DNA of 64,000 bases from Pseudovibrio sp. JCM 19062 (GTDB taxonomy: Bacteria > Pseudomonadota > Alphaproteobacteria > Rhizobiales > Stappiaceae): positions 195,732 to 259,731 of the forward strand of contig BAXV01000001.1 of NCBI GenBank assembly GCA_001310715.1, in the 5' to 3' direction. This document shows positions 1-64,000 of this stretch, piece by piece (positions within the stretch are counted from its first letter, which is position 1; every line of letters begins with the position of its first letter). The notes below the pieces were generated by a model. It did not search any database, was not told where the DNA came from, and saw only the letters and a list, made by a program, of their open reading frames with translations. The position numbers and the translations under genes are program-made.

Positions 1-1376
1 TATCCAGTTTTTGACCCTGACGCCACGAGTGGCTGAGCTTTCCGTCGACGAACATTTGCTCTGCGATGAAACTAAAAGCGGCCTTGGCAGAGGAGCGCAG
101 CGATTCATGTGAAACAAGGGCATCGGCTTGCACGAGGGCACAGATGAGCATGGCGTTCCAGTCTGCCAGCACTTTGTCGTCTTTGTGAGGTGGGATGCGC
201 TGGCTTCTGTGGTCGAGCAGGATCGTTCTGCATGAGGTCAGCACAGCCTCTTCAGCGGGCTCCAGAAGGCAGGGGAGTGGCGCCGGTTGAGGATGATCTT
301 GCTTCCCAGTTACCCTCTGGGGTGACGTCATATGTGCTGGCGAATAACTTAAAGTGTTCTTCAGGAATGAGGCTCTTCAGCTCGTCGTAAGTCCAGACAT
401 AGAACTTTCCTTCGACGCCTTCACTGTCTGCATCCATGGATGAAGCGAAGCCACCTTCTGAAAGCTTCATGTCGCGTTCGAGCCAATCAATTACTTCGTG
501 GATTCGGACATGAAACAGTTCGTCTTGAGTTTCCTGATAGGCCCAGCACAGATGCTCGATGAATTGGGCGTTGTCGTAGAGCATCTTTTCAAAATGTGGG
601 ACAAGCCAAATTGAGTCGACTGCGTAACGAGCGAGGCCACCTCCCACATGATCATAGATTCCACCTTGCGCAATTGCGCGGGTGGTTTTTAAAAATTGAT
701 CGCGCATGAAGGTGTTCTTTTGCGCTTTCGCGGTCCTGAAAATGATCTCCTGAACGGAGGCCTGAGGAAACTTTGGTGCACCCTTCATGCCACCTTCTTC
801 TTCATCCTGCATGGTGAAGAGTTGCTTGCCGGCAGCGGTGATCATGAAGCCAGAAAGAGGGGAAGCCTCTGACGGTGGCTTGTTGAGAGCCTGACTGATG
901 GCCTGTCGGTTCTCTTCAATGGTGTCGCGATCTGCGGTGAAGCTTTGTGCTATTGCGGATAAGACATCCTTGAATGCTGGAGAGCCGTGACGGGCTTCAT
1001 TTGGGAAATAGGTGCCTCCCCAGAACGGATCACCTTCCGGCGTGAGGAACATTGTTAGCGGCCAACCACCCTGTTGACCAAGCATATGAAGTGCCTGCAT
1101 ATAGATTTGGTCAATGTCCGGGCGCTCTTCACGGTCTACCTTGATGTTGACGAAATGCTCATTCATGAGCGCGGCTGTTGCCTCATCCTCAAAACTTTCG
1201 TGGGCCATGACGTGGCACCAATGGCAGGCGGAGTAGCCAACAGACAGCAGAATTGGCTTGTTTGTTCTTTGGGCTTCTTCCAGCGCATCCTTGCTCCATT
1301 CCCACCAGTGGACAGGGTTATTCTGGTGTTGAAGAAGGTAAGGGCTTGAAGCATTCGTTAAGCGATTTCTGCTCAT
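1..1376 (-). CDS. DUF255 thioredoxin-domain protein (YyaL-like), partial at left edge
   Basis: The N-terminal half of a YyaL/DUF255 protein: a thioredoxin-like domain fused to an (alpha/alpha)6-barrel epimerase-like domain. The start ATG at 1376 gives MSRNRLTNASSPYLLQHQ, the usual opening of the family. The thioredoxin-like CxxC is CHWC in SVGYSACHWCHVMAHESF (about residues 46-63), followed by the family block VDREERPDID. The reading frame breaks twice: near 302 (loss of one G on the coding strand, after NWE) and near 268 (loss of one C). With both repaired the protein continues in frame through KDDKVLADWNAML and runs off the window edge at base 1. The true function of this family is not settled; a redox or sugar-related role is only inferred. 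It is transcribed divergently from mnmE across a 95-base gap. Confidence 0.88.
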
Positions 1377-1471
1377 AAAGAGGTGATCCTGAGTTCAAGG
1401 TATTGCTTGGCGTAAAGGCTAGGTTTAACGCAGTTCATACGAGATCATATAGTTAAAGAACCGGACGTGGA

Positions 1472-2820
1472 ATGAATACACAACAGGAAACCATCTATGC
1501 AGTTTCTAGCGGCGCACTTCCTTCAGGCGTTGCTGTTATCCGTTTATCAGGTCCTCAGTCCGGACCAATCCTGAGAAAGCTGATTAAGGGAAAATTCCCG
1601 ATTTCACGTGAATCCTACCTTAAAAAACTATGGGACCCTGTCGATGGCTCCGTGCTCGATCATGCGCTGGTTCTGTGGTTTGAAGGACCTGGAAGCTTTA
1701 CTGGTGAGGATACGGTTGAGCTGCATTGTCATGGCGGCCGCGCTGTTGTGGCCGCTGTGCTGCGTGCTCTTTCCACCTTTGAAAACACGCGTCCTGCTGA
1801 GCAGGGTGAGTTTACCCGGCGTGCCTTTCACAACAACAAGCTTGACCTGACAGAGGTTGAGGGGCTTGCTGATTTGATCGATGCGGAGACCGATGCGCAG
1901 CGGCGGCAGGCTCAACGTCAAATGGATGGAGCGCTTGGGGACCTTTACTCGCAGTGGCGCGAAACGTTGATCCGCAGCCGCGCGATGATTGAAGCTGAAC
2001 TCGATTTCTCCGATGAAGATGATATCCCTGACTCCGTTGCCGATGAGATCTGGGTGGAGCTGACAAAGCTTCGTGACCAGATTGTCGCGCACCTTTCCGA
2101 TGCGAGGAGAGGGGAGCGCTTACGCTCTGGTCTGCAGGTTGTTCTGCTTGGCCCGCCGAATGCGGGTAAGTCCAGTTTGATGAACAAGCTGGCTCAGCGG
2201 GATGTGGCGATCGTAACACCGGAAGCTGGAACGACCCGCGATGTACTTGAGGTGCATCTCGACCTTGGTGGTTATCCGGTAACGCTGATTGATACAGCGG
2301 GCATTCGTGAAAGTGCAGGTATGATCGAGAAAGAGGGTATTCGCCGTGCGCTCGTTCATGCTGAAAAGGCAGATCTCATTCTCTGGACCCATGCTCCAAA
2401 CGTGGAGGCAGAGGAGCTTCCTGATAGTCTACAGAAGAGCGGCGCGGAGATTTGGCGGCTAAATACCAAGAGTGATCTGGGCTCGATTGAGGATCATGAC
2501 TCTTTCGAAACAACCGCAGAGATCAATGTCTCAGTTCGGGAAGAGGGTGGCATGAACGCACTGCTTTCAAGCCTCGAGTCGTTTGCGGAACAAAATATCG
2601 GATTAATCGAAAACCCGCTGATCACCCGCGAACGTCACCGTGCCCATCTCACTCAATGTGTGGAAGATCTGAATCGTGGCATTCAGGCGGAAGGTTTTCC
2701 GATTGAGCTGAGAGGGGAAGACCTGAGACGGGCGGCTGATCAACTTGGCGGATTACAGGGCGAATTGATGTTGAAGATCTGCTGGATGTGATCTTTCGCG
2801 ACTTCTGTGTTGGTAAATAA
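1472..2820 (+). CDS. mnmE: tRNA uridine-5-carboxymethylaminomethyl synthesis GTPase MnmE
   Basis: MnmE is a dimeric, potassium-dependent GTPase that works with MnmG to place carboxymethylaminomethyl groups on U34 of tRNAs. The N-terminal tetrahydrofolate-binding domain begins MNTQQETIYAVSSGALPSG. The G domain shows G1 GPPNAGKSS (about residue 228) and G3 DTAGIRES. As read, the frame ends early with LMLKICWM. Restoring one C near 2749 (ggcgg to ggccgg) gives GRITGRIDVEDLLDVIF and the invariant C-terminal cysteine motif FCVGK, stopping at TAA 2818-2820 after 449 codons, a normal length. The start is ATG 1472. It is followed by a parS site and then mnmG, its partner, on the same strand. Confidence 0.95.
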
Positions 2821-2837
2821 AAGATGTAGAAGTGCGA

Positions 2838-2853
2838 TGTTTCACGTGAAACA
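2838..2853. promoter_or_regulatory. parS: parS centromere site 1 (perfect palindrome)
   Basis: The 16-base sequence TGTTTCACGTGAAACA is a perfect inverted repeat and matches the conserved ParB-binding parS consensus of bacterial chromosomes. It lies in the 285-base gap between mnmE and mnmG, 3 kb upstream of parAB in the same window. The rest of this gap shows no gene. An in-frame upstream extension of mnmG across part of the gap is not protein-like. Confidence 0.95.
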
Positions 2854-3105
2854 TTTATTGGAAGTTGGGATTTAGTGGGGAAAATATCGTGAGTCCCGTG
2901 GGTAACTAATGCTACGGCATTGGCGACTCAGAGAGCTGTTTTCTTTGACCCAGCGCGTGACCTGTTGTATCAAGTCTTTAATAAAATAGGTAGTTGCCCT
3001 TCTAATTCCCCCAAGTTTTATCTGCGGCCTTCATATGGTCCAGAGGCTCACAGAGAGTATGCTTGGCCTTTCTCTGTACTTAGACGGGCGAAAAGCAGGA
3101 CCGAA

Positions 3106-4987
3106 ATGTCTGATAATTTTGATCTTGAGTTTGACGTTGTCGTGATTGGCGGCGGCCATGCAGGCTGTGAAGCTGCGGCGGCGGCTGCGCGCATGGGTGC
3201 ACATACAGCGCTTATAACTCATCGTTTTGACACCATTGGTGTGATGTCTTGTAACCCGGCCATCGGCGGTTTGGGGAAGGGGCATCTGGTTCGAGAAATC
3301 GATGCGCTGGACGGTTTGATGGGCCGGGTGGCTGATGCCTCTGGTATTCAGTTCCGTATGCTCAATCGCCGTAAAGGGCCTGCTGTTCAAGGGCCGCGCT
3401 CTCAGGCTGACCGCAAGCTTTACCGTGAAGCGATGCAGGCCGAGATCAAAGCGATTGATAATCTGGACGTGGTTGAAGGCGAGGCTGACATGCTGATCCG
3501 TGAGGGCGGTGTCCTCAAGGGGGCTGTGCTTGGAGACGGTCGCCGGGTTTCGGCAAAAGCTGTTGTCATCACGACAGGTACGTTCTTGCGTGGTCTGATC
3601 CATATTGGCGATAAACAGATACCAGCGGGTCGTGATGGGGAAGCGCCTGCGCTTGGCCTTTCAGTTTCTCTGGAAGAGATCGGTCTCCGTCTTGGGCGTT
3701 TGAAGACTGGTACTCCGGCGCGTTTGGATGGCCGGACCATCAACTGGGACATCCTTCAGGAACAGCCAGGTGATGACGAGCTATCCCATTCTCTACGCTG
3801 ACTGATAAGATTCAGATCCGTCAGGTGCCGTGTTACATTACACGGACGACGCCTGAGACGCACAAGATCATTCGTGACAATATCAAGCGTTCGGCAATGT
3901 ACTCCGGCGAGATCAAGGGCAGGGGCCCAAGGTATTGCCCGTCGATCGAAGACAAGATCGTTCGCTTTGGTGATCGTGATGGCCATCAGATCTTTCTTGA
4001 GCCGGAAGGGCTGGATGACCCTACCGTTTATCCAAACGGTATTTCGACCTCATTACCGGAAGATGTACAGATCGAGTTTCTGCGAACTATTCCAGGGCTG
4101 GAAAAGGTTGAGTACTTCAAACCCGCCTATGCGATTGAGTATGACCATATCGATCCGACCGAACTGACAAACACGCTTGAGGTGAAGAAACAAAAGGGCC
4201 TTTACCTCGCGGGTCAGATCAACGGTACTACCGGCTATGAAGAAGCTGGAGCTCAGGGTCTTCTGGCTGGCTTGAATGCCGCCAGAACAGCTCAGGACGG
4301 TGCTCAGGTGGTTGTCGGGCGTGCTGACGGGTATATCGGTGTGATGTTGATGATCTCATCACACGGGGCGTTTCCGAGCCGTATCGCATGTTTACATCGC
4401 GTGCTGAGTATCGCCTCACACTCCGTGCAGATAATGCGGATCAGCGCCTGACCCCGCTTGGTGTTGAGTGGGGATGTGTCGGCGAGACCCGTCGAGTCGC
4501 TTTCGAAACAAAGATTGAAAAGCTTCGAAAAGCCAAAGATTTGATGCAGTCCGCCAAAATCACACCGAATGAGGGTCGCAAGCACGGCTTGCCGATTAAT
4601 CAGGATGGTGTGAAGCGCTCTGCCTTTGATCTGCTGGCGTATCCAGATATCAGCCTCAAAGACCTTACGAAGGTATTTGAGGAGCTGAAGGATCTTGATA
4701 CCAAGATAGCCGAGCAGGTTGCTATAGATGCGATGTATGCGGTCTATCTGGAACGTCAGGCTGCTGATATTGAGGCTCTGAAACGGGATGAGGATCTGGT
4801 TATTCCTAACGGGATTGACTACAGCGCCTTAACCGGACTTTCCAACGAAGTGCGTCAGAAGCTCGAAGCTGTGCGTCCTTCAACCATCGGGCAGGCTTCG
4901 CGAATGGACGGGATCACCCCGGCAGCGCTGACCTTGCTGCTTGTTTATATTCGCCGCTCAGGCAAAAACATTGCTGGTGCTATTTAG
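3106..4987 (+). CDS. mnmG: tRNA uridine-5-carboxymethylaminomethyl synthesis enzyme MnmG (GidA)
   Basis: FAD- and NADH-dependent partner of MnmE in wobble U34 modification. The start ATG 3106 gives [24 protein letters not shown], with the Rossmann dinucleotide motif [10 protein letters not shown] at residues 15-24. Further family blocks are [20 protein letters not shown] and [16 protein letters not shown]. Two frame breaks split it into three pieces. One C is lost near 3781, where repair gives [17 protein letters not shown]. One base is lost near 4347, where repair restores a GVM(I/V)[19 protein letters not shown] segment. The C-terminal helical domain ends at TAG 4985-4987. With repairs it is about 628 residues, the usual size. 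The stop is one base before the rsmG start, so the two are probably cotranscribed and may be translationally coupled. Confidence 0.95.
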
Positions 4988-8678: not shown

Positions 8679-9718
8679 TTACCGCCGTCTGTTTGAAGCT
8701 TTAGCCACTTGGGCAATTGCCAGTAGGGTGTGCGATACAATTGCCGTCGAGAGGTTAGCGTTGAGGCGGGCGTCTTTTACGGCCTCGTTGAGGCGGCTTA
8801 GCGCGCGTTCTAGAAAGTCTACATTCCAGATCTCAACCTGCCTGACAATCTTTGAGCGGCGCTTCCAGAAGATTGGTGGGCGCATTCCTCCGATAACATC
8901 TTCTACAGCAATGCGTTGATTGGCTTTTAAGCGGCACAGGTGGAGCATTTGGAAATGTCTGAGGGCTTGAGAAGCGATGACGCCAACGTCCATCCCTGAG
9001 GCCGAGAGGCGCTCCAGTCCGTGGTCCAATGTGACTGTGTCACCTAATGCGGCGGCATCAATCAGCTCATCCATGGCAAAGGCAGAGGCGTCTCCGATGA
9101 TCTCTTCCACATGATGGACTTCAATGCGGTTGTCATTCATCGCGTAGAGGCACAGCTTCTTGAGCTCTCCGCGGCTGGCAATGCGATCTGCGCCGAGCAG
9201 GGTGTGAAGCGCCATACGGGCTTCCTTGCTGATTTGCAGGCTTGCAAGGGCGGTTTCTTCGTCGATCAGCCGGTCTACATCCCGGGCGGTATCAGCAAAG
9301 CAGGGAATGGCGACAGCAGTTTTGCTGGCTTCGAACTTCTTGCGCAGGGCTGATGAGTTTTTCAGATCTCCTGCTTCAATAAGGATGAAAGCTGAGAAAT
9401 CGTTATTCTTAAGAAGCGGTTCTACTGCTGGCAGGATGCTTTTGGTGCCGTTCTCGCGTACCCAGATTGTGCGGCGGCCACCAAAGAGGGGAATGGTAAG
9501 GGCTTCGTCTATAAGGCGGCTTGGGTCGGCTGCGATATCTGAAGCGTCCAGTTTCACCTGAGAGAAGGGATCGTCATTCTCTGCTGCTGCTTTGGAAATG
9601 AGCATTTGTGCTCTTTCCTTCACCAACCCGACATCCGGACCATAAACGAGAATGAGGTTTACAGAGGCAGGCGGTTGGAGATGTATCGATCAATCTCAGC
9701 AGCTTTGAGGGCTACCAT
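8679..9718 (-). CDS. holA: DNA polymerase III delta subunit HolA
   Basis: The delta subunit opens the beta sliding clamp within the clamp loader. The start ATG 9718 gives MVALKAAEIDRYISNRLP, then a frame break near 9672 (one C lost, ccctct read as cctct). Repair continues SVNLILVYGPDVGLVKERAQ, the expected opening of alphaproteobacterial delta with the GPDVGLVKER loop. The rest is open: FGGRRTIWVRENGTKS, then the C-terminal collar region ending ISHTLLAIAQVAKASNRRR-like residues. Corrected length is about 347 residues, normal. It follows lptE with a 7-base gap, the usual leuS-lptE-holA order, and is probably cotranscribed with them. Confidence 0.93.
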
Positions 9719-9725
9719 AATGGTC

Positions 9726-10328
9726 CTATTCTTCAGGATGCGTTGCGAAATAACTTGCGATGCGTGTGTTGATATCAGCAGCAACTACCTTAGTTGCGCG
9801 CGTCTCTGCATCTTTTTCCGCTCTCAGGTTCGCGAAACGTTGGCTTGAAAAGTCAAAGGAGGCGGATGCGAAAGAGCGGCCAGTCAAAAGCGTCGTATCG
9901 GTTGCGATGTCGCTCAATACAAAGCTGGAATTGACTGTGATGTTGTAAGCGGTTGGTACATCAGCAAGCCGTTCAACACCAACTTCAGCGCGGCGTCTAT
10001 CAGTCAGAATCTCCAGCCGATACTTAGGCGGTAGTGCTTTGCCACCACGCGTGAAAGCGAAGATCAGCTGGTTTCGCATGACCTGATTGATGTTCGTGAT
10101 GGCAAACGAGTCCCCGTAGCTTGGGAACTCCATAGTGATTGCCGCCATCTTATCCTGAACGGTCCGTGTCTGTTCCGTCCCATCATCAGTCAGCATTGAG
10201 CTCGTTCCATAAAGAGGACGAAGCTGACAACCAGAAAGAAGGAGGGCCCCCGCAACAATTGTTGCCCCGCCGAGAAGAACCCGGCGGGAGGGGAGACCTG
10301 ATTTAGCAGCGCGGTCAAACAACGACAT
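9726..10328 (-). CDS. lptE: LPS-assembly lipoprotein LptE
   Basis: An outer-membrane lipoprotein that plugs LptD and helps insert lipopolysaccharide. It begins [19 protein letters not shown] with a hydrophobic stretch ending in the lipobox LLLSGC (Cys about residue 34). The mature part opens [10 protein letters not shown], the hallmark of alphaproteobacterial LptE. It is 200 residues and intact. Its ATG lies inside the end of leuS (14-base overlap after frame correction) and its stop is 7 bases before holA, so the three genes form one operon joining translation, LPS export and replication functions. Confidence 0.93.
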
Positions 10329-12927
10329 TTACGATCCTCTGAGGTACCACGATGACTTTGCGTGGGGCCTTGCCGTCCAGAGCTTTCCGAACAGCCTCAT
10401 GTGCCAGAGTAACTGCTTCTACCTCCTCTTTGGAAGAGCTTCTTGCTACTGAAATCTCACCTTTTTTTCTTTCCGTTGATCTGAATCGGAAGCGTAACGG
10501 TATTTTCTACCAGTAGGTTTTCATCGAGAGCTGGCCAGTTAGATGTGGATACCAAACCTTCGTTACCGAGCATGGCCCAACATTCTTCGGAAAGGTGAGG
10601 CGTGATTGGCTCCATGAGCTGCAAGATAAAGCCCACTGCTTCGCGCAGTGCAAATGCCATATCGGGCTTGGACAGGTCTGCCTGAAGTGCTTTGCTGATC
10701 GCGTTGGTGAACTCATAAAGACGGGCTACAGCACGGTTGAAACCGAGGCCGTCGAAGTCTTTTGTGATGGCAGCCAGTGTCTTGTGAGAGACGCGACGCA
10801 GTGCGGTTGCCTCATCACTGAACTCAGCAGGTTTTGCGATGTTGGCTTCGGTCTTTTCTGCAACCTCGTTGACGATACGCCATACGCGCTGAACGTGGCG
10901 CCAAGCACCGATTACGCCATCTTCAGTCCAGATGATGTCACGCTCTGGCGGACTGTCCGAAAGCACAAATAGGCGTGCAGTATCAGCGCCGTAGGTATCG
11001 ATGATGTCGGTTGGGTCTACAACGTTCTTCTTGGACTTGGACATCTTTTCGATGGAGCCAATGGAGATCGGTGCTCCGGTTTCTGCATGAAGCGCTTTGC
11101 GGTCACCCTCGGTGCTGATGATGTTGATTTCAGCGGGGGTGACCCACTTACCATCCGCATCCTTGTAGGTCTCGTGGTTCACCATGCCTTGGGTGAAGAG
11201 GCCTTTGAATGGCTCTTTCACATCCAAGTGTTTGGTGATCTGCATCGCACGGGCAAAGAAGCGGGAGTAGAGCAGGTGCAGGATCGCGTGCTCGACGCCG
11301 CCGATGTACTGATCGACCGGCAACCACTCGGAGGCGACCTTTGGATCTGTCGGGTTGCTGTTCTTTGGATCAGTGAAACGTGCGAAGTACCAAGAGGAGT
11401 CTACGAAGGTGTCCATGGTGTCAGTTTCGCGCTGAGCATCTTTTCCACAGCAAGGGCATTTTACGTTGCGCCATGTGGGGTGACGGTCCAGCGGATTGCC
11501 CGGGCGATCGAAGGTGACGTCTTCTGGCAGAACGATCGGCAGGCTTTCTTTTGGTGCTGGCTGAACACCGCAGTCATCACAGTGGATAACCGGAATCGGG
11601 CAACCCCAATAGCGCTGACGGGAGATGCCCCAGTCGCGCAGACGGTAGTTGGTTTCGCGGTGGGCCTGCTGTTCGCCCTTCACTGCTTGCGCTTCCAACT
11701 TGTCAGAAACGGCATTCTTTGCATCCTCGATGGACATGCCGTTCATGAAGTCAGAGTTAAAGATGGAGCCTTCGCCTGTGTAGGCTTCGGTTCCAACATC
11801 GAACGTTTCCGGGTCTTCACCTTCTGGCAGCACAACTGCTTTCACCGGCAGTTTGTATTTGTGAGCGAAGTCCAAATCGCGCTGGTCGTGTGCAGGGCAG
11901 GCGAAGATTGCGCCGGTGCCGTAGTCCATCAGGATAAAGTTTGCCACGTAGACTGGCAGCTCCCAGGATGGTCCAGCGGGTGCTTGACGCGCAGGCCTGT
12001 GTCGAAGCCCAGTTTCTCTGCGGTTTCGATTGCTTCAGCTGTCGTTCCAATGCGTCGACATTCAGCAATGAAATCCTGCAGCTCTGTATTCGTTTCAGCC
12101 AGCTTCTGGGTGATTGGGTGATCTGGAGACAGACCCATGAAGGAAGCACCGTACAGGGTGTCCGGGCGGGTCGTGAAGATCTCCAGAGTTTCATCACCGG
12201 TTGGAGCGGTTTCTGTGAACTCGAAATTGACTTTCAGACCAACAGACTTGCCGATCCAGTTCTTCTGCATGAGACGAACTTTTTCAGGCCAATCGGTCAG
12301 AGTGTCGATCGCTTCCAACAGCTCTTCGGAATGATCGGAGATCTTGAAGAACCACTGGGTCAGGTCTTTTTGCTCAACAACGGCACCGGAGCGCCAGCCT
12401 TTGCCGTCAATCACCTGTTCGTTTGCCAGAACAGTCATGTCGACAGGGTCCCAGTTTACCTTTGCGTTTTTACGGTAAACCAAACCAGCTTCGAGGAAGT
12501 CCAGGAACAGAGCCTGCTGCTGTGCGTAGTAGTCTTCATCACAGGTTGCGAATTCGCGGCTCCAGTCAAAAGACAGGCCGATTGTCTTCAGCTGGCCGCG
12601 CATCGCTGCGATGTTGTCGTAGGTCCAGCCCTTTGGGTGCACCTTCTTCTCAGCTGCTGCGTTTTCTGCAGGCATGCCGAATGCATCCCAACCCATTGGG
12701 TGCAGGACGTTGTAGCCGCGTGCGCGTTTGAAGCGTGCAACCACGTCACCCATGGAATAGTTGCGAACATGTCCCATGTGGAGGCGACCGGATGGATAGG
12801 GGAACATTTCTAGTACGTAGTACTTTTCGCGCGGATCATCGTTGTCCGTCTCAAAGACTTTCTGTTCGTCCCATACTTTTTGCCAGCGCGCTTCTGTAGC
12901 GCGTGCATTATACCTATCCGTAGCCAT
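10315..12927 (-). CDS. leuS: Leucyl-tRNA synthetase LeuS
   Basis: Class I synthetase charging tRNA-Leu. It starts at ATG 12927 ([21 protein letters not shown]). The HIGH motif appears as HMGH in [20 protein letters not shown], and KMSKS is present in [14 protein letters not shown]. The CP1 editing domain carries the [15 protein letters not shown] block. Two frame breaks occur. One C is lost near 11970; repair restores [16 protein letters not shown]. One A is gained in a seven-A run (10462-10468, T on this strand), which as read ends the protein at NGKKKR. With six A the reading continues as [13 protein letters not shown], through the usual C-terminal domain, to a TGA at 10315-10317 overlapping the lptE start. 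Corrected length is about 870 residues, normal. Confidence 0.96.
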
Positions 12928-13884: not shown

Positions 13885-14865
13885 TTACTGCAGCTGATCG
13901 TGCAACCATTTCATCGTTGTGGAGACCACAAGATCGTTATTTTGCGGGCTGACGATGTCGCCGACAATGAGATGGTCGTTATCATCCCTGAACTCTCGAT
14001 CAGCAGTCGCTGCTTTGGTGCGCCCCACTTTTCGTAGGCGATGTTGGTTTGAGACGAATCAACTGTCTGGTCTTTTTCGCTGTAGATGAACAGGGTAGGC
14101 ACAGTGGCTTTTGCCGGATCCTGTTCTTGTAAGACAGAGATTGCTGTTGCCAGTGGCAAAAGCGCCTGTGTTGGGTAACTGATTGTCCAGCCCATTAGTT
14201 CTTCTGGAGTTGGGGCCTCCGAAGTGGTGCGGGTTTTGCCAAGTATTAGAGGCACGTATTGTCTGGCAAATGGCATATCAAGCAAGAAGCGCCCGGAGAA
14301 TTAATGGCAAAATTCGGTGAGACGAACACCATTGCAGCAATGTCTTCCTTGAGAGGATGATCTTGCATTGCAAGCCATGCCGCAAGGTACTTCCGGTTGA
14401 GGTCGATATAATGATTGTCTTTTCACCGATGCGGCGGCCAATTTCTACAGATTCAGCAAGGTCGTTGATCCAGTCGTTCAGCGTGGGTTCGGCCATTGCT
14501 TCGTTGGACCGACCGTGGCCTGCTAGACGGGTGTAGAACAGATTTGCGCCCAGCTCGTTTGCAACGCGATCCGGTACGGGACGGATTGATTGTTTGCTGG
14601 CGGAAAAGCCATGGATATAGATGACTGAAAGAGGCGTTTTGCTGTTCTTCTCGCCGTTGAACCAGATGATTTCCTTGGCGGTGCCATCACGGATGTCCTG
14701 AAACTTGGCTTCGCTGTTTGACAGGTACAGATCGAGATCCTCGCCCATAACTTCGGGTTTGAAGGTAATCTCAGTATCACGTGGTTCTCTTGGACCTACC
14801 AAGTAGGCAATTGTGCCGCCGACAAGTAAAATCAGCACTGCAAGAATAAAATAACGAAATAGCAT
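13885..14865 (-). CDS. Membrane-anchored alpha/beta hydrolase, copy A
   Basis: A lysophospholipase-like alpha/beta hydrolase with an N-terminal membrane anchor (MLFRYFILAVLILLVGGTIA). The oxyanion region is VIYIHGFSASKQSIRPVPD. The nucleophile elbow after frame repair reads ISTSTGSTLAAWL, so the first Gly of GxSxG is Ser. The acid is in FIYSEKDQTVD and the His in DDNDHLIVGDI. Three frame breaks are present: near 14385 (one G lost), near 14283 (one T lost) and near 13996 (one G lost); with repairs it ends at TAA 13885-13887 after about 327 residues. It is a close paralogue of the gene immediately upstream. Substrate is unknown. Confidence 0.82.
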
Positions 14866-14931
14866 AGGATGGAGCCCTTGTTCCTTAAGGGCACCACTCT
14901 ATTCTATCCTAAGTTGAAATATCAAACGAGA

Positions 14932-15944: not shown

Positions 15945-16062
15945 CGTTACAACGCCTCTTTTTTTTCGCTGATCATGGGTCAGCTTGGCAGGAAACCGGG
16001 TGCATTTGTCAGTTTTCCTTTTTATCCCAGCTTATACAATCTCTAGTAAATGGCAGTTTTGC

Positions 16063-18209: not shown

Positions 18210-18229
18210 ATACCTAGGAGTAACTAAAA

Positions 18230-24958: not shown

Positions 24959-24984
24959 TATGATACGTCTCCAATGAAGAATTT

Positions 24985-38946: not shown

Positions 38947-38971
38947 GCGGCCGTTTTAGTTGGTTGGAAAG

Positions 38972-43444: not shown

Positions 43445-43556
43445 GGAAGTCTTCCCTGTAATCGTTCGGTTAGCCCAATTAACCGTTGACACTACCGATA
43501 TAGCGTCACACTACTCACATTCAATCGAAATCACTACTAAAATAGGTTTGTCTGCA

Positions 43557-45125: not shown

Positions 45126-45154
45126 ATTAAACCCAAATCATAATGAGGCTAGAC

Positions 45155-48379: not shown

Positions 48380-51011
48380 GTGACCCATCAGAATGAGAAT
48401 GGCGGTAATAAAAATCTCAAGAATGCCATAGCTTCAGCAAGCGAATTGCGAGGGCATAAGCGGCATTTTGGTGAACACTCTCTCGCTTTAGGCCTCTGGC
48501 AGGCTCTCTTTTCTCAAAAATTACCCCATCGATTGAAGCGGCTGGCTTTTAAAGCGCAGCTCTATTTGTTTTGGGAGCGGTTCTGGCCTGCGGTTCAGAT
48601 TCCGCTCATCGTGGTTTGCCTTTATGTGGCCATTAGCTTTCTGGGCGCATGGCAACTGCTTGGTTTCTACGGCTCTGCCTTTGTTTCCATTGTGTTTTTC
48701 GCGGTTCTGGCATGGAGCAGCTACCCGCTGTTACGTCTGAAGCTTCCCAGTGAGACTGAGGGGCTGCACAAGGTTGAACTTGCAAGCGGGCTGCCGCACC
48801 GGCCTTTGCTCTCCTATCGGGATGAGCAGGCGACCGGGATGGATGATGACGAGGCGCTTGCTCTTTGGGCTGCCCATCAGAAAGCGTTGCGAACGCGGCT
48901 CCAGAACCTGCGGGTTGGTGGTGTTAATCCACGCGGGTTCGCCAAAGATCCTTATGCTGCGGTTTTGCGGTGATGTTGTTGGTGGTCGGTTATTCCGTTT
49001 CGGATGCGAACCGGTGGTCGAGCCTGCTAACCCCGTTCTACACGCAGGGGGGTGGGAGCGTCTTGCCAGCCCGGATTGATGCTTGGGTGACGCCGCCCGC
49101 TTATACCGGTGAAGCTCCGGTTTTTCTCAGTGGCGATGCCAATCAGTTGCGTGACGAGCGGAATGCACTTTCGATTGCCAGTGGCAGTACGGTTCTGGTG
49201 CGAGCGCAGGGAACGGGTGAGTTTTCCGTCGTCTACTTTTCGCGTCAGGGGCAAGAATTTCTGGAGCCGGAGCGTGTTCAAACGGGTGCGGGGGAAACCT
49301 CCGAGGCGATGACAACCACCGAGTGGCGGTTTCCGTTGAACTCCAGCGGGCGATTGCAGATCCTGCAAAATGACTCGCCCAAGTACTCCTGGAAGATTGC
49401 CATTCGTCCGGACTTGCCGCCGCGTATTCGCCTGTTTGATGACCCTGAAGAGCAGCTGTCAGGCAGCCTAAAGCTGACGTATCTGGTGCAGGATGATTAC
49501 CGCGTGGTTTCGGCGGAAGCCATTATGGACAAGGTTCAGCGGGATGATGAGGATACACCGGGGCGATCTTTGGTTGAGGCGCCGCGGTTTAATCTGAGCT
49601 TGCCGCCGAAAGATGCAACGATGGCTGTTGGGCAGACTTATCAGGACCTGACGGCGCATCCATGGGCGGGGTCGGAGGTGTCTCTTGTGCTCGTTGCGCA
49701 TGATGAGGCTGAGCAGGAGGGGCGCTCGCAGCCGGTTTATATCAAGCTGCCCGAGCGCCGGTTCAACAAGCCATTGGCGCGGGCGGTGGTTGAGCAACGG
49801 CGCAATCTGGCGATGAATGTTGAGAGCTACTCTCAGGTGGTTGATGTGCTGGATGTGCTGATGATTGCGCCGGAGCGGTTTATTGACGATGCCGGCTCTT
49901 ATCTGCCGCTGCGCTTTGCCTATAGCGAGCTGGTGGCAGCCGAAACGGATGACGACCTGCGGGCCATGCTGGATGTGCTGTGGAATGTGGCGCTGACCAT
50001 TGAGGACGGTGGCCTGTCTGCTGCTGAGCGGGCTTTGCGCGAGGCGCAGGAGGCTTTGCGGCGGGCGCTGGAGCAAGGGGCGTCCGAGCAGGAAATTGCC
50101 GAGTTGATGGATGACCTGCGCAAGGCGCTGGATGACTATCTGAAATCCATGGCGCAGCAGATGCGAGATAATCCGCAGCAGCTTGGTCAGATGCCGATGG
50201 ATGAAAACGGACAGCAGATCACGCCCCGCGATCTGGATGACATGTTGCGCCGGATGGAAGAGTTGGCGAAGACGGATCTTTGGAAGCTGCGCGCGAGCTG
50301 TTGGCGCAGATGCAGCAGATGCTGGAGAATATGCAAAATGCCCAGCAACAGCAGCAGACACCCAACGAGCAGCAGCGCCAGATGTTGCAGGCTCTGGAGA
50401 ACCTCGGCGACATGATCCAGAAGCAGCGCAAGCTGATGGATGAGACGCACAAGTTTGATCCTGATAGCCAGCAGCGCCGCCCCAACCAGCGCAGTGACCA
50501 GCAAGACAAGAATGGTGAGATGAGCGATGAGGAGGCGCGGGAAGCCTTCCGCCAGCTGCAAAAGCAGCAGCGCAACCTTTCCGACGAGCTGCAAAAACTG
50601 CTTGATGGTATGGCGAACAATGGTGCCAAGCCGAACAAGGATCTGGACAGCGCTGGTAACTCCATGGAAGAGGCTGGCGATGCGCTGGGTGCTCAAGAAG
50701 CTGATGAAGCGGTGTCCGAGCAAAGTCAGGCCTTGGAATCCCTGCGTAAAGGTGCTCAAGCGCTTGCTGAGCAGCTGGCAGGGCAAAGCGGTGGGCGAGG
50801 GCAGGCGACCACTTCACCGCTTAACGAAGACCCACTGGGCCGTATGCGCCGGGTTGAAGGGCCGGAGTTTGGCAGTCAGGTGAAGGTGCCTGATGAAATC
50901 GAGGTTCAGCGTGCACGGCGTATCCTTGAAGAACTCCGCCGCCGCCTTTCCGACCCCGATCGCCCTCAGCTTGAGCTGGAGTATCTGGAACGCCTGATGA
51001 AGCGCTACTGA
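48380..51011 (+). CDS. TIGR02302 family large membrane protein
   Basis: A protein of about 877 residues starting at GTG 48380. Two N-terminal membrane helices (PAVQIPLIVVCLYVAISFL and GSAFVSIVFFAVLAWSSYPL) are followed by a third around VMLLVVGYSVS. Next comes a large periplasmic-looking part, and then a Gln/Glu/Arg-rich helical C-terminus (LLAQMQQMLENMQNAQQQQQ), ending RRLSDPDRPQLELEYLERL. Frame breaks lie near 48965 (one T lost; DPYAAVFAVMLLVVGYSVSD) and near 50277 (one G lost; LAKTGSLEAARELLAQM). The family is alphaproteobacterial, commonly next to lysA, and has no firm function. Confidence 0.88.
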
Positions 51012-51037: not shown

Positions 51038-52350
51038 TTAGCTCAGGAGTTGCTCTGCCCGGCTTAAAGCAGGGTCATTGCCTTGCTGGAGGTCTTTTGC
51101 GGTGAGGCTGACCGGATAGTCCGGCTGTATCCCCACACCTTCGAACGTGCTTCCATCTGGAAAGTCGGTGCGTTTTGTCGAGACCATGAGCAGTGTGCCC
51201 GGCAGGGGGGCTTCGAAGTAGGGTTGTCCGGTAGAGCCAGCTGACGCCTCGCCGACAATTGTTGCGCGGCCGGAATGTTTAAGGGGTATCAAAAGGTCTT
51301 CGGTTGATGAGCAGCTGCCGATGTCGATCAGGACAATCAGTTTTCCTTTGAATGGGGCAGGGCTTGCCGGGAGGTGGTCGCCATTTTCGAGGAGCGTCAT
51401 TGATGTTGTTTGGGCGTTGGAAGGCAGGTGAAATGCCGAGAGTTCTCCGTTCTGGAATGCAGGTAGGGCTTGCTCAGTTTTTTTTCGAGGCCCATGAATT
51501 GCGGAGTACGTTCCATCGAGAGTGGGATTGGTTCAACGCAGAATTTCGTCCTCAGATTGGAAGGCGTGTCGCCACCGGTGTTGCCGCGCAGGTCGAGGAT
51601 GAGTGGGGACTGATCGTCGATCTGGCTGAGCAAATCGAGGGCCTGTTGCTCAAACTCGGGCTTTGAGAAGCTGCGGATGATCAGGCGGGGGAATTTGCCT
51701 GAGTGGTCCATCTCAACGCCTTTATGGAGCGACAGCGGATGCTTTGCCCCGATACGGCTGACTTGCAGCCTCTTGCCATTGGAAAGGGTAAGGCCGAGTT
51801 GCTCAGGAAAGAGAAAGCCTCTGAACAGAAGGGTATAGCTCGCCGCTTCAGGTTTTGAGGCACTTACAAACTGCGTGTAGTGGGCGAAGAATTCATCGGC
51901 GGGCCTGTCATTAACCTCCTTGATGATGTCACCTTTTTGCAGGTCAGAAAGAGTTGAGCCGCAAACTGTCCAGACAAGGTCGTTTGGTGTTGAGGCGGAA
52001 GCAGGGAGAGGCCGAGCCCAAAAGCCGAAACTTGGGTTTTGCAAGAGCGTGTGGTCGATGAATTGAGTATGAGCGTTTTGCAGGCGTGCCAGATAGCTTT
52101 GGGTTGCGAGCAGAAAGCCGCGCCGGTCCTGAGTGCCTTCCAGCGCGTTCAGGTAGTCGAAATAGAGATCTGCGTTACACAGGTCAGGCACATTCTCCCA
52201 GTGGGCAAAACAGGTTTCGACAGCGGAGTAGATCCGGCCTGCTGCATAATACTTCAAAGCTGGCGGCATGGGCGCTGAGGGGTCATTCAGGTTTGTCAGT
52301 GCGTTGCGGAGGTCTGGCGTATGTGTGCGTACAGCAGTCTCTTGGTCCAT
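51038..52350 (-). CDS. S41-family (tail-specific-like) peptidase
   Basis: A serine peptidase of the S41/C-terminal-processing type. Visible parts are LILDLRGNTGGDTPSNLR (the DLRGNxGG motif), the nucleophile region IDIGSCSSTEDLLIPLK and the following IVGEASAGSTGQPYFEA. No clear signal peptide is seen from ATG 52350. Frame breaks: the eight-A run near 51485 (repair EKKTEQALPAFQNGELSAF) and one C lost near 51424 (HLPNAQTTSMTLLENGDHLP). Corrected length is about 437 residues. It converges with the TIGR02302 gene. Target unknown. Confidence 0.8.
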
Positions 52351-55818: not shown

Positions 55819-56364
55819 TTAGTCGTCACCTTCCTGCGGCACGTAGCCGATGAATGGCAACTGTCTCCATGCATGCCCCATGTCCATGCCGTAGCCAACC
55901 ACGAATTTATCCGGGCAATCGAAACCCGTATAATCCGATTTGATGTCGGCCTTTCTATGGTTCGGTTTGTCCAGGAGTGCAGCCACCCGGACAGACTTTG
56001 CACCACGTTCGGCGATCAGGTCGCGTGCAAATCTCAGAGTGCGGCCAGATTCGAGGATGTCATCTACCAGAATGACGTCTCTTCCGGTCACATCGCTTTC
56101 GATATCTCGGAGGACTTTTACCTCTCCTGACGATACCGTTCCTCTTCCATAACTTGAAAGGTGTAAAAATTCCATTTCCGGAACGGAACCTGCTCTATGC
56201 AAAGCACGGGCAAGATCAGCTGCAAAAATGAAGCTTCCTTTTAAGACCGCTACAACGAGGAGTTTGTGAGGGTTGTCCTGTGCGATAGCTTCTGCGATTG
56301 CTTTTACGCGTTTCGCAATTGCTTCTTCATCAAACAGCACGCGGATTTCCGGAGTACCGGTCAT
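55819..56364 (-). CDS. hpt: Hypoxanthine phosphoribosyltransferase
   Basis: Purine salvage enzyme, 181 residues: MTGTPEIRVLFDEEAIAKRV. The PRPP-binding motif is DVILVDDILESGRTLRFARD, preceded by LKGSFIFAADLARAL and SSYG. The base-binding region is DKFVVGYGMDMGHAWRQLPF. It is intact. Its ATG directly follows the stop TAG of the zinc-ribbon gene with no gap, so translation is probably coupled. Confidence 0.95.
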   Translation of the reverse strand: MTGTPEIRVLFDEEAIAKRVKAIAEAIAQDNPHKLLVVAVLKGSFIFAADLARALHRAGSVPEMEFLHLSSYGRGTVSSGEVKVLRDIESDVTGRDVILVDDILESGRTLRFARDLIAERGAKSVRVAALLDKPNHRKADIKSDYTGFDCPDKFVVGYGMDMGHAWRQLPFIGYVPQEGDD

Positions 56365-57328
56365 CTAATGCTCGCTCTTTTTTTTCTGGCGCTCAACAAA
56401 GCGCAATTGAATGTCGGCGGCTCGCTCTGGCGGATTATTCAGCCGAGCTCTGAACCGGGTTTTAGTACCTGGTGCAAGCCTGTCTTCTCGTGGCTCAACA
56501 ATCCAGGAGTGTATCTCTTGCGTGTCCTGCGAGCGCAATGCCAGCTTGATGGCCGGAATAAACGTCTCGCTTCTTGCTATATTTTCTACAGAGCCTTCAA
56601 CAACGAGCACGACGGAACCGTCGTCCACCTCGCGGAACGTTCTCAGATCCCTAAATACAAGACCACGTAGATTTACGGTCATACCAGCCAACTGGTAAAG
56701 ACCGGCCAAGTCAGGGAAACTTCTTACAATCGACTCACGGTATTTCACGACTGAAAAGCAGAGCGCGAGTGAAGCAGCAAGAAGGCTTGCTCCCAGCAGG
56801 CCTTTCGCGCTTATAACAGCTGATTTGCGGGATGACTTGGTTTTTTTTCGTGATCTTTTGTCTGGCTTGCGTGAAACACCCTCAGATTTGGTTTTTTTCC
56901 TCGGGTTTCTTATCCTCAGAGCCAGCAGGTCCGGCTGTTTCCTCATATGAGGGGCCTGTTTTGGCTGTTGACTGCGTGCTGGTGTGGATGCCCCAAAAAT
57001 CGTCTGTATCTGAGGGGGCTTCCTTGGGATTTGCAGCAAGGTCTTCCTCTGAAAAGGCTGAGTGGCGCTCGGCATTGCCAGTTGCTCTGGACAGGTCGCT
57101 ATCGTCAAAGCCTTGAGAGGATGAGGGTTCTTTAAGGTTGTCAGCGGTTGTTGAATTGTTGTGTACTTCAGGCCCTGTGTTGGACGGCGCTGCCGGTTGC
57201 TCTTTCCCATCAGGCTCAACATGCCAGATATGATTGCAGCTGGCGCATTTCACTTTGCGGCCAGTATCGCCAATTTTGTTGGTGGGAATCTTATAGGCAG
57301 TGCTACATTGAGGGCAGGTAATTTTCAT
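56365..57328 (-). CDS. MJ0042-type zinc-ribbon/DUF3426 membrane protein
   Basis: The N-terminal zinc ribbon is MKITCPQCSTAYKIPTNKIG with the second pair in VKCASCNHIWHVEP. A long acidic, Ser/Pro-rich linker follows, then a basic stretch and a membrane helix (GLLGASLLAASLALCFSVV), and a DUF3426-type domain (FRDLRTFREVDDGSVVLVVE, ending RFVERQKKKSEH). One A is gained in the seven-A run (56892-56898, T on this strand); with six A the reading joins KKPEEKTKSEGVSRKPDKRS. Corrected length is about 321 residues. It starts the zinc-ribbon-hpt-cpdR operon and is divergent from ftsE, as in many Rhizobiales. Function unknown. Confidence 0.88.
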
Positions 57329-57752: not shown

Positions 57753-58410
57753 GTGATACGCTTTGAGAATGTGGGACTCCGGTATGGCATGGGCGGAAGT
57801 ACTTCGGGATTTGACCTTTTCCATTGAGCCGCAATCTTTTCAGTTCCTCACTGGTCCTTCAGGTGCGGGCAAAACCAGTTTGCTGCGGCTGTTATTTCTC
57901 TCCATGCGCCCCACACGCGGGCTGATTTCCGTTTTTGGAAAAGACACCACCAAGATCGCCAAGGCTGAGCTGCCTTCCATGCGTCGCCGGATTGGTGTGG
58001 TGTTTCAGGATTTCCGGCTGCTGGACCATCTGACCACCTATGAAAACGTGGCTTTGCCGCATCGTGTGGCAGGCAAGTCCGAGTCAGAGTATCGTCCTGA
58101 TGTGATCGACCTGCTGAAGTGGGTGGGACTTGGCGACCGGATGCATGTGCTGCCGCCGGTTCTTTCCGGTGGTGAGAAGCAGCGTGCTGCGATTGCGCGT
58201 GCTTTGATCACCCGGCCTGAAGTTTTGCTGGCAGATGAGCCGACAGGGAACGTGGATCCGCCACTTGCCCGCCGTTTGCTGCGTCTGTTTATCGAGCTGA
58301 ACCGGCTTGGTACCTCTGTGGTGATCGCAACCCACGACTTTCACCTGCTGGAGCAGGTGGAGGCTCGGCACCTTATTCTCAACGACGGGCGGTTAGCTGT
58401 TCATGACTGA
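57753..58410 (+). CDS. ftsE: Cell division ATP-binding protein FtsE
   Basis: ABC ATPase partner of FtsX, controlling peptidoglycan hydrolases at the septum. It starts at GTG 57753 (VIRFENVGLRYG), with AGGGGA upstream. A frame break near 57795 (GGGG read as GGG) follows; repair gives YGMGAEVLRDLTFSIEPQSF. Walker A is GPSGAGKTSLLRLLFL, the Q-loop FQDFRLLDHLT, the signature LSGGEKQRAAIARAL and Walker B VLLADEPTGNVDP. Corrected length is about 219 residues. Its end overlaps the ftsX start by 8 bases. Confidence 0.95.
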
Positions 58411-59484
58411 TACTCGGCAAAGAAGAGAGCCGCCCATGTCCGCTCCAAGACCCGGTGCACGGCGCGGACCACCCGCAGGTCCGAAGCGACCCGGTGGGCC
58501 GCGAAAAGGGCCTCCGAAAGGCAAGGGCGTGCGCCCGCTGAAAAAGGTTGCGGCTAGAAAAACGTCCAGCTTGAGATTCAAGATTAAAGAAAGGCCAGCG
58601 CCGATTGTTCCGCCACAGGCGATTTCCGGTCAGGCTTTGATGCTTGTTGTGGCGATCATGAGTTTTCTTGCCTGCCTGACTGTTGGGTTTGTGACGATCG
58701 TTAATGATGCGGCCAATGACTGGACCAATGATCTGGTGCGCGAAGTGACTGTGCAGATCCGGCCTGCGGATGGCGTGAACATGTTGCAGGAGATTGATCG
58801 CACACTGGCACTGGTTCGCGAGTTTCCCGGTGTGGGCGATGCGCGTGCGCTTTCAGATGAGGAAACCAAGGGGCTGCTTCAGCCCTGGCTCGGGGAAGGG
58901 CTTGAGCTGGAGGAACTACCGGTTCCGCGTCTGGTTCTTGTTGAGATCACCGATCCTGAAATGCTCAACCTGCCAGAGATGAAAGCGCAGATTGAACGGG
59001 ATATCCGGGCGGCCTCTGTGGATGATCACCGCGTCTGGAACCGCCAGCTTTCTGCCATGGCGAATACAGCCGTGCTGGTTGGCTTTGGTATTCTGGTGCT
59101 TGTGCTGTTTTCCATGGTGCTCTCGGTGATTTTCGCAACGCAGGCACCATGTCCGGCAATAAGGATGTGGTAGAAGTGCTTCACTTTGTGGGGGCGGAAG
59201 TGGGCTTCATTGCCTCTCAGTTTCAGCGGCACTTCCTTTGGCTGGGGCTGAAGGGCGGGATCTTTGGGGGCACAATGGCTGCTGTGAGTTTCCTGATTGT
59301 CGGCTTCCTTAGTGGCTCTGATGTCACTTCTGTTAGCGGAAATCAGGTGCAGGCGTTGTTTGGCTCTGCACAGGTAAGCGCAATCGGATATGTTGGGATC
59401 GTTGCTATTGTGGCGCTTGTTGCGGTGCTGACTGCACTGACCTCCCGTCTGGCTGTCCACAGGCATTTGGCAAATATGGACTGA
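58403..59484 (+). CDS. ftsX: Cell division membrane protein FtsX
   Basis: Four-helix transporter-like partner of FtsE. The start ATG 58403 overlaps the ftsE end. The first 70 residues are a basic Gly/Pro/Arg/Lys-rich cytoplasmic extension (RPGARRGPPAGPKRPGG, then GPPKGKGVRPLKK), followed by helix 1 (ALMLVVAIMSFLACLTVGF) and the periplasmic loop (VQIRPADGV, GVGDARALSDEE). The frame breaks near 59146 (one G lost); repair gives SVIFATQGTMSGNKDVVEVL, then the remaining helices including IVAIVALVAVLTAL. Corrected length is about 361 residues, larger than FtsX of enterobacteria mainly because of the N-terminal extension. Confidence 0.93.
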
Positions 59485-61680: not shown

Positions 61681-62204
61681 TTAGAGTGACAGCTGCCGTG
61701 CCAGCCATTCTACATTCTGGTCTTTCACACCCATTTCCTTCATGTGCTCGTAGGTGTTGAGCACGTACTCCGGGTTTGCACCTGACAGGCCCTTTGCTCC
61801 TTTTACAATCTTCAATTGTTCTTCCAGAGGTAAGGCACCAGCATATTGGTTGTGTTTCCGGTCTGCGACGAATGTGACTGCGCGTACCTTGCTGCCTTCA
61901 TCATCCAGCAAACGAATGCTGCGGTGTGCTTCCAGATAAACCATGGTTTGCTGTTCGCGTTCGCGGAGGTAATGAAGAGTATGCTGCCAGTTTTCAGGTG
62001 CGACTTTGAACGCCATGCCGATGCAGGCACCGCCTTTGTCCAGCCCAAATACCAGTCCAGGGTTGTCCTGAGTCCCACGATGAACCCATGAATATACACA
62101 GAGAGATCTATGGAGCCGTGCACAATTGCAGGGACAATCTGTTCATAAGGAAAGCCCGGTCGCCAAATTAGTGAGCCGTAGCCAAATATCCATAAATCTC
62201 GCAT
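61681..62204 (-). CDS. ChaC-family gamma-glutamylcyclotransferase
   Basis: Cleaves gamma-glutamyl groups, probably from glutathione. The substrate-binding loop is FGYGSLIWRPGFPYEQ near the N-terminus (ATG 62204). A frame break near 62110 (one C lost) garbles residues 35-60; repair gives GSHRSLCVYSWVHRGTQDNP, then GLVFGLDKGGACIGMAFKVA with the typical CxGxAF block. The catalytic Glu is in YLREREQ, followed by VYLEAHRSIRLLDDEG. Corrected length is about 174 residues. It is divergent from the DUF2125 gene. Confidence 0.9.
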
Positions 62205-62299
62205 AACTATTTTCTCGTAGAATTCTTATATACACATCGCCTATCAGGCTCGTAATCAGCATGCAACTCACAGCACTGTGTGAGGGTAACGGAGAGTAG

Positions 62300-63343
62300 A
62301 TGACTGAACCAAAAGTATCCCGGCCCCCAAGAAAGTCAGCGTATGTCGCCTTGGCGATCTTCGTCATCCTGCTCATTGGGGGATGGTCCGGCTATTGGGC
62401 CGTTGGACGTGGTATTGTTTCTGACGTTATTCGCAATGGAATAAACGTTGCTGAAGCAGAAGGCGGAAGCCTTGAATGCGGCGATCAGAAGCTTGGTGGA
62501 TACCCGTTCCGATTTGAACTGAGCTGTACTCCTTTTCGTATGGATAAGGACGGAGAGTGGTACTTTATCAATGAGTTACGCGCTGTTGCGCTGGCTTATA
62601 ACCCGACCCATGTGATCTTTGAGGGGAGCGGCCCGGCTGAGATAAACCTTGGTGAGGATGGGCCTGCTTATTCTGCGGACTGGACAACAGCACAAGCGAG
62701 TGTGGTTGCTGAAAACAATATGCCCGCACAAGTTGATACCGTCTTCAATGAGCCGACTCTGACCTACACTATCGGAGATCAGTCTCTTGAGTTGGAGGCG
62801 AATCTGACAGAAGCGCATATGCGCCGTGTTGAAGACAATGCGGATGCGCTGGATGTGGCTTTGCGGATCGTCGGTCTGACAGCAGGTAATGTCTCCGGTG
62901 ATGTGCCGCTTGATGTCAGCCTTGTGATGCAGTTGCCGGAGGTTCTGGCGTGCTGGATGGCGAGGTTCGCAATCTAGCTGATTTATTGGTTGATGAAGAG
63001 ATAAGGGTCAATATCTCCAGCCTGCAGCTGCAAAGCGGTGAGTTCTCCGTCAGTACGGAGGGCAATCTGGTGATTGACCGGCAGGGGCGTTTGAATGGAA
63101 CGCTGCCACTGGTGATTACCGGCATTCATCAGCTGAATGAGGTGTTGCGGCCATTGTTCCCACAAGATGCCAGAACGCTTGAGGCGCTTCAGAGAACGGC
63201 GACGAGTATTGGACAGGGAAGTGCGGAAAATGGTGTTCCGACAATCCGGATACCGGTGACCCTTGAAAATGGGCGTGCACGGATCGCGTTTTTTTGATCT
63301 GGGGCCTGTGCCTCAGCTGGTCATAGGAGAAAGCGGCTCTTAA
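62300..63343 (+). CDS. DUF2125 family membrane-anchored protein
   Basis: An alphaproteobacterial DUF2125 protein: N-terminal anchor AYVALAIFVILLIGGWSGYW, then LECGDQKLGGYPFRFELSCT with the family GYPFR motif and two Cys, and a long beta-rich periplasmic domain. Frame breaks: near 62951 (one G lost; LPEVLAVLDGEVRNLADLLV) and a gained T in the seven-T run 63289-63295. With six T the C-terminus continues IAFFDLGPVPQLVIGESGS and stops at TAA 63341-63343, inside the terminator loop. About 347 residues. Function unknown; the fold hints at lipid-transport-like AsmA relatives, which is speculation. Confidence 0.87.
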
Positions 63344-63353
63344 TGAGCCGCTT
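63331..63353. terminator. Terminator between the DUF2125 and GNAT genes
   Basis: AAGCGGCTC and GAGCCGCTT form a perfect 9-base stem around TTAAT, followed by TT. The corrected DUF2125 stop codon lies in its loop. It separates convergent genes. Confidence 0.8.
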
Positions 63354-63358
63354 TTGGT

Positions 63359-63820
63359 TTATGCGAGCGCAAGACGGTCAAGCGCGATAATGAAGCTGGC
63401 TTCGTCGCCAGGTTCAGCCAGCTCTTCAAAGAGGCTGTTGTCGACCTTGTTTTTGCTTGGCACCAGACAGCGAACGTGAAGCCAGTCACGTGCTTTGCCG
63501 ATCTTGGAGAGCGCTTCTAGCAGCGAGCGACCAATGCCTTTATGGCGATGGTCCGGCATCACGTAGATATCGTCCAACTGGCCAATGCGCAGACCGGAGA
63601 TCAGGTCCGGAATATCGAAGAAAGCAGCGAAGCCGACCAGATTTTCGCCTTCATATGCACCGATGATTTCGATGGACTTATCTTCGAGCAGGCGCTCGGC
63701 AAAGACTTCGTCTGGACGACGTGGAGCGCCGCGCTTCAATGCTTGTGCGTTCTCTGCAATGAGAGGGGCCAAGTCTGGCGCATCACCGGGTCTTAAGGCT
63801 CTACAAGTAAGGTCAGCCAT
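63359..63820 (-). CDS. GNAT family N-acetyltransferase
   Basis: 153 residues, MADLTCRALRPGDAPDLAPL. Motif A is DDIYVMPDHRHKGIGRSLLE with the HRHKGIG core; GFAAFFDIPDLISGLRIGQL precedes it. It is intact. Substrate unknown. Upstream to the window edge (63821-64000) I see only AT-rich non-coding DNA. Confidence 0.88.
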   Translation of the reverse strand: MADLTCRALRPGDAPDLAPLIAENAQALKRGAPRRPDEVFAERLLEDKSIEIIGAYEGENLVGFAAFFDIPDLISGLRIGQLDDIYVMPDHRHKGIGRSLLEALSKIGKARDWLHVRCLVPSKNKVDNSLFEELAEPGDEASFIIALDRLALA

Positions 63821-64000
63821 TATACCTCTTCCCGTTCCTTCGTTTAATTTTGGGCTATAGAGGACCCCAAAAATTCCTGAAAATCAAGGTATCAAACCCC
63901 AATTGGTCCGCAAATTTGTGGGATCTCGCATTCGAATGCTTCAAGTTGTATTTGGGACTACATTAATTAAATATGTGCCTGCTGACATGTAGCTAGCTTT

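Follow-up and report, generated by a model that had tools for sequence, protein, structure and literature searches.

We analyzed a 64,000-nucleotide stretch of DNA from Pseudovibrio sp. JCM 19062 (contig BAXV01000001.1, positions 195,732 to 259,731; here called the window), in which more than half of the aligned genes are broken by small insertions or deletions (indels) that change the reading frame. Abstract listings describe Pseudovibrio as a marine genus whose members are frequent associates of invertebrates. Comparison of the ParB protein of the window with genome contigs returned 14 loci, the first 11 of which were from Pseudovibrio, with P. japonicus KCTC 12861 as the best (98%). At the DNA level, the first part of the window was approximately 90% identical to P. 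japonicus, 86% to P. ascidiaceicola, P. denitrificans, and strain Alg231-02, and 81% to P. axinellae, and the window was mostly colinear with P. japonicus over the whole 64 kb. Judged by these comparisons, the window is Pseudovibrio chromosome from a member of the genus that is closely related to P. japonicus but not the same. We did not detect closer same-species DNA than P. japonicus (94% identical over argH) in a scan of genome contigs combined with a search of 16 genomes of the genus, and a scan of viral contigs with MnmE gave no relative. We also weighed whether a 154,914-bp contig encoding a CobW protein (P0003, 97%) could belong to the same species, but rejected it because the protein is slightly nearer to P. 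japonicus than to the window.

Frame changes were counted in two alignment sets. The gene set consisted of P. japonicus open reading frames (ORFs) that could be matched over their full length in two or more of four other species (n = 52; one shadow ORF was removed by hand), 51 of which had a match in the window and were aligned with MAFFT, covering 49,505 window bases. Only indels unique to one sequence were counted, events 15 or fewer columns from a gene end were dropped, and genes were named via NCBIfam profiles. Because the relatives' genes in this set had been selected as open frames, we also made a frame-blind count in a block set of 119 DNA blocks picked regardless of reading frame. Counts below refer to the gene set unless blocks are named.

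We observed 52 frame-changing indels unique to the window, in 30 of the 51 genes (1.05 events per kb), against 1 in P. japonicus, 3 in P. denitrificans, 2 in Alg231-02, 0 in P. ascidiaceicola, and 2 in P. axinellae. In coding blocks (45 to 50 kb for each sequence), the window had 55 such events, whereas P. denitrificans had 8, Alg231-02 and P. ascidiaceicola 3 each, P. axinellae 11, and P. japonicus none across 50.4 kb. Given the P. japonicus counts, chance is ruled out as the source of the excess in the window. One-base deletions made up 40 of the 52 events and one-base insertions another 7; the remainder were two deletions and two insertions of two bases each and a single deletion of four bases. 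Adding cases outside the gene set brings the total to approximately 57 frame changes in approximately 34 genes, a lower bound, as regions lacking colinear relatives (for example, 52.4 to 55.3 kb) lie outside the count. An original prediction, made from the letters of the window alone, had put the numbers at about 60 frameshifts in about 35 genes and had proposed a comparison with relatives; our counts bear out the numbers, and the relatives proved to contain such changes only rarely.

The genes that this prediction had named as broken all contain frame changes (window coordinates, with strand, are given throughout). For seven of these, the name is also supported by a profile: mnmG (2920..4987, +; two frame changes; TIGR00136), leuS (10315..12927, −; one deletion and one insertion; TIGR00396), ffh (16336..17891, +; one; TIGR00959), trmD (19323..20026, +; one; TIGR00088), argH (45143..46551, +; four; NCBIfam name), lysA (47012..48281, +; two; TIGR01048), and ftsE (57753..58410, +; one two-base deletion; TIGR02673). 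The predicted holA and rpsP are likewise disrupted, but their names are unconfirmed. The gene called holA (8679..9811, −) has one frame change and no NCBIfam match at 1e-60, and the gene called rpsP (18226..18624, + with an estimated start; outside the 51 genes) is shifted near its start, with the first 11 codons out of frame (the tblastn match starts at residue 12) and a G-run deletion at 18,260. A full-length match to the ffh small RNA family (Rfam RF01793; 16156-16207, +) lies just upstream of ffh.

Other broken genes with profile names were mnmE (1472..2820, +; one; NF003661), an acetate-CoA ligase gene (27205..29203, −; two; TIGR02188), a 3-hydroxybutyryl-CoA dehydrogenase gene (33224..34116, −; one; NF005715), a cob(I)yrinic acid a,c-diamide adenosyltransferase gene (36243..36817, −; one; TIGR00636), a cardiolipin synthase gene (39461..40890, −; one; TIGR04265), an SDR oxidoreductase gene (41345..42194, −; two; NF004649), a ubiquinone biosynthesis hydroxylase gene (42204..43492, −; one; NF005599), tlpA (44441..45125, −; one insertion; NF047696), and a TIGR02302 family gene (48380..51011, +; two, one of four bases). 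Profile matches fell below curated cut-offs for a D-Ala-D-Ala carboxypeptidase-like gene (30608..31982, +; two) and an electron transfer flavoprotein alpha-like gene (34251..35179, −; one). An MFS transporter gene, named from relatives (37796..38946, +), contained six frame changes, the maximum in the gene set, and even with these six the overall scatter remained compatible with chance. Frame changes were also present in conserved genes at 13885..15976 (−; two genes of unassigned function with three and one), 20878..21734 (+; three, one of two bases), 29557..30158 (−; one), 37076..37658 (−; two, both insertions), 51038..52350 (−; one two-base insertion), 56361..57328 (−; two, both insertions), and 61681..63343 (two genes listed without strand; one and two), and in the gene following ftsE (58403..59484, +; one).

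Outside the 51 genes, tblastn revealed two frame changes in a DUF255/YyaL-like gene cut by the window edge (1..1376, −), where a P. japonicus stop-to-stop protein matched three frames in turn. A further jump, near 24.6 kb, was found against a P. ascidiaceicola ORF in a gene at 24366..24988 (−), and another, weakly supported, near 39.2 kb in a gene at 38960..39360 (+) whose pieces were 72% and 58% identical. The first of these two genes lies in a region (24276-27159) that, like 52420-55344, falls outside the multi-species blocks and in which three ORFs are 64 to 71% like P. ascidiaceicola ORFs.

The frame changes carried a signature specific to base and run length. As had been predicted, the lost base was usually G or C in a short run: 36 of the 40 one-base deletions hit G or C, 32 of these 36 in runs of two to four and 30 in runs of two to three. 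In the aligned blocks, one base was missing from 36 of 5,789 G/C runs of at least two but from only 2 of 5,459 A/T runs (Fisher p = 8e-9), and 34 of those 36 deletions sat in runs of two or three. The deletion rate per thousand G/C runs was 3.5 to 4.2 for doublets and 16 to 20 for triplets. With C runs read on the other strand, the base following the deleted G run was C in 24 of the 36 cases (14.4 expected), T in 11 (11.5 expected), and A in only 1 (10.1 expected). This shortage of A had a binomial p of 1.4e-4 as one among 16 positions inspected. Beyond this next-base effect, we detected no motif around the deletions, and errors at methylation motifs were rejected as a source, as nothing resembling a methylation motif surrounds the deletions. 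A check for phase variation showed that the G/C events affect runs of only 2 or 3 bases rather than long simple tracts.

Insertions followed a different rule. All seven one-base insertions added A or T, and six yielded runs of 7 to 8. Across coding and non-coding blocks, 34 A/T runs were at least six bases long, and 9 of these had gained a base (6 coding, 3 non-coding), whereas P. japonicus and P. denitrificans each had a single, non-coding insertion in such runs, and 7 of 8 insertions in non-coding blocks of the window were of A or T. For the nine lengthened runs, slippage could in principle be responsible. The prediction of one consistent signature holds for the G/C-run deletions but not as a one-directional process, given these insertions and five multi-base events.

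We then asked how the events were distributed among genes. Events per gene followed gene length (chi2 = 55.7 with 50 degrees of freedom [df], p = 0.26, 51 genes), and 21 genes were intact compared to 20.8 expected under scatter by length, consistent with the earlier description of intact genes as interspersed at random. Breaks also reached conserved genes, at a somewhat lower rate per kb than in the others: with high conservation defined as at least 90% protein identity between P. japonicus and P. axinellae, 13 of 22 highly conserved genes were broken, including leuS, ffh, and argH, as were 15 of the 26 genes below that level (three further genes had no identity value and were excluded). The ratio of nonsynonymous to synonymous substitution (dN/dS) was 0.068 for the broken genes, compared to 0.058 for the intact ones. 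Purifying selection has been about equal on the two groups, although very recent decay would leave no trace in dN/dS. No nonsense substitutions were found in the protein bodies of the aligned genes; of eight in-frame stops flagged, three coincided with the stop of a relative, and the other five, where the relative has a sense codon, were all close to the end of a gene or in a probable extension of its start. The sites showed no preference for codon phase (chi2 = 1.21 for 16 runs of two and 4.05 for 14 runs of three, df 2).

The argH gene permitted a direct comparison with an intact counterpart. Its four frame changes divide the window's copy into five pieces across three frames. With P. japonicus ArgH as a query, we found an intact 466-residue ArgH (P0124) on a 262,896-bp NCBI-source contig. 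Among three proteins compared, P0124 matched the window's five pieces at 466 of 466 residues, a figure that counts residues under two overlapping pieces from either piece, whereas P. japonicus ArgH matched at 458 and another protein, P0123, at 454. This match argues that another public assembly, probably from the same species as judged from this one gene at the protein level, carries the window's ArgH unbroken. The contig encoding P0124 may thus come from a separate assembly of this species, or even of this strain. In a protein search with the MFS transporter (six events), the best 120 of 384 matches included no further intact protein of nearly identical sequence apart from those of P. japonicus and of other relatives, named or clustered, and because the proteins are clustered, this search is uninformative.

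Together, the run signature, the random scatter, the breakage of 13 of 22 highly conserved genes, the low dN/dS, the lack of nonsense substitutions, and the intact ArgH elsewhere support a sequencing or assembly artefact, of whatever platform, over genome decay, and on this sequence evidence we regard such an artefact as very nearly certain. In the mechanism we propose, consensus errors from one sequencing run would have persisted into the assembly, such that short G/C runs, chiefly GG/CC and GGG/CCC before a pyrimidine, lost bases and A/T runs of at least six gained them. In the living bacterium, the genes would be intact, and raw reads would be expected to reveal the error. The original prediction had attributed the frameshifts to under-calling of G/C runs and not to decay; its choice of error stands, but its account was incomplete because A/T runs of six or more are over-called and because the deletions depend on the next base.

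Given an artefact, the platform was probably an Ion Torrent Personal Genome Machine (PGM) or a similar flow sequencer. Passages of PMC3623719 report that high-frequency indels of the PGM are most often A/T insertions or C/G deletions and occur at approximately 1 per 1,000 to 2,000 bp, and that 82% of strand-asymmetric PGM indels lie in runs of two to three, mainly as C and G deletions. The window resembles these indels in its C/G deletions, its A/T insertions, its runs of two to three, and its rate of about one event per kb, and the next-base dependence is an added feature of the window relative to them. In kind, this type of artefact is ordinary and already well described. Passages of PMC11017572 describe near-identical bacterial genomes that differ in pseudogene counts, with platform, assembler, and coverage implicated; those are statistics over assemblies, whereas the window is a single case with a base-level signature. 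In the literature consulted, we found no Pseudovibrio genome paper on frameshifts, PacBio, or Ion Torrent that could be tied to the window, and the same was true for passages of PMC5959193, PMC5563371, and PMC11556074.

A related pattern was observed in the P. denitrificans JCM 12308 assembly (L028-L031), which had six unique one-base deletions in coding G/C runs at window-equivalent positions of approximately 1, 15, 27, 28, 42, and 58 kb. All six hit GG before C, for which the chance is 0.004 at an expected 40% (control from P. japonicus). This suggests that the JCM 12308 assembly contains the same class of error as the window at a lower rate. The literature consulted gave no statement on the platform of that assembly.

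Several observations weigh against an artefact or against the PGM as its source. In passages of PMC3623719, only 29% of all high-frequency PGM indels are in homopolymers, whereas most window indels lie in runs. Insertions to deletions stand at 7 to 40 in the window (about six deletions per insertion), compared to ratios of 0.37 to 2.7 for the PGM (Table 2 of PMC3623719), with the published values describing read-level sites and ours an assembled consensus, which limits a direct comparison. The next-base dependence has no explanation in the literature that we consulted on such errors. The window-only insertions in non-coding blocks include one in a G/C run and four in A/T runs shorter than six, and the ArgH match was scored generously at overlaps, as described above. 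Under strict polarisation, all 36 G/C-run deletions fell in coding DNA when approximately 2.8 would be expected in non-coding DNA; under looser polarisation, 37 were coding and 2 non-coding, compared to 2.9 non-coding expected. This test is weak because there is little non-coding sequence. Finally, the event rate was 0.81 per kb in the 22 conserved genes and 1.37 per kb in the 26 others (binomial p = 0.09), and event rate and conservation tended toward a negative correlation (Spearman −0.27, p = 0.06). The lower rate in conserved genes is not significant, but it leans in the direction that real selection would produce; the same lean could arise if fast-evolving genes align less well or contain true indels. 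Because of this lean, we lowered our confidence in an artefact slightly, from a level that was already very high.

The alternative that survives best is itself a form of artefact, in which the errors came from another platform, such as low-coverage PacBio continuous long reads (CLR), Nanopore, or 454, instead of Ion Torrent. We consider this possible but distinctly less likely. Our comparison with other platforms covers assemblies described in passages of PMC12007338 (Kastor), where long-read errors are chiefly short homopolymer indels, mostly deletions. The errors in those assemblies, like those in the window, are short indels, mostly deletions, that break genes. However, the commonest deletions there occur at A/T stretches, whereas those of the window occur at G/C runs of two to three, and in the Pss508 long-read assembly from the same source, deletions favor long A/T stretches about twofold over G/C, with most following stretches of four to five. 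The absence of a methylation-like motif around the window's deletions also argues against another platform.

Real genome decay, in which a recent shift to obligate symbiosis allowed many genes to be inactivated by indels, appears very improbable. The common occurrence of Pseudovibrio on marine invertebrates, as given in abstract listings, would fit such a history, and so would the somewhat lower event rate in more conserved genes. Decay does not readily account for the simultaneous breakage of leuS, ffh, trmD, ftsE, argH, and lysA, for a signature specific to base and run, for protein bodies free of nonsense substitutions, or for a matching ArgH that is intact elsewhere. The dN/dS of broken genes also stays low, although very recent decay would be invisible to this measure.

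Even less probable is a mutator strain, for example one that lost mismatch repair or has excess activity of an error-prone polymerase, in which mutation would truly favor dropping G/C and extending long A/T runs. Mutators are known to expand A/T runs and to cause −1 deletions at G runs. However, a cell should not survive without leuS or ffh, and the window contains frame changes in both; protein bodies are also free of nonsense substitutions.

The remaining alternative would have the frameshifts be real, with more than half of the genes out of frame in a live bacterium that restores the frame at its G/C and A/T runs genome-wide, whether through slippage during transcription or through frameshifting that is programmed or driven by suppressors, and we give it almost no credence. 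G/C runs are classic suppressor sites, which counts in its favor. A parallel is reported for Perkinsus mitochondria, where, as in the window, the frame must change in many genes of a single genome (passages of PMC9550989 report conserved frameshifts in all genes), but the window's shifts, unlike those conserved ones, are of both signs (40 one-base deletions and 7 one-base insertions), show no codon-phase preference, and are absent from the aligned relatives (being window-only by construction), and another genome encodes an ArgH that is intact and, apart from the breaks, the same as that of the window.

Apart from the frame changes, we observed that identity to P. japonicus jumps from gene to gene in the region 18651-21734 (90.0%, 83.0% for trmD, 97.6%, and 90.9%). 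The trmD gene, with a dS of 1.43, is nearer to P. denitrificans (84.7%) than to P. japonicus. Because identity jumps in this way and trmD is nearer P. denitrificans, the sequence suggests past recombination in this region.

These findings are a quality warning on the record and do not describe the biology of the organism. With approximately 34 genes affected in 64 kb, at about one error per kb, automatic annotation of this sequence would yield false pseudogenes and split genes. Features that can be scored without reads provide a simple test that helps to separate such error from decay: deletions in G/C runs compared to those in A/T runs, insertions in A/T runs, whether events scatter according to gene length, and the dN/dS of broken genes. 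For Pseudovibrio, any tally of pseudogenes, gene loss, or genome reduction would be biased by the inclusion of this record.

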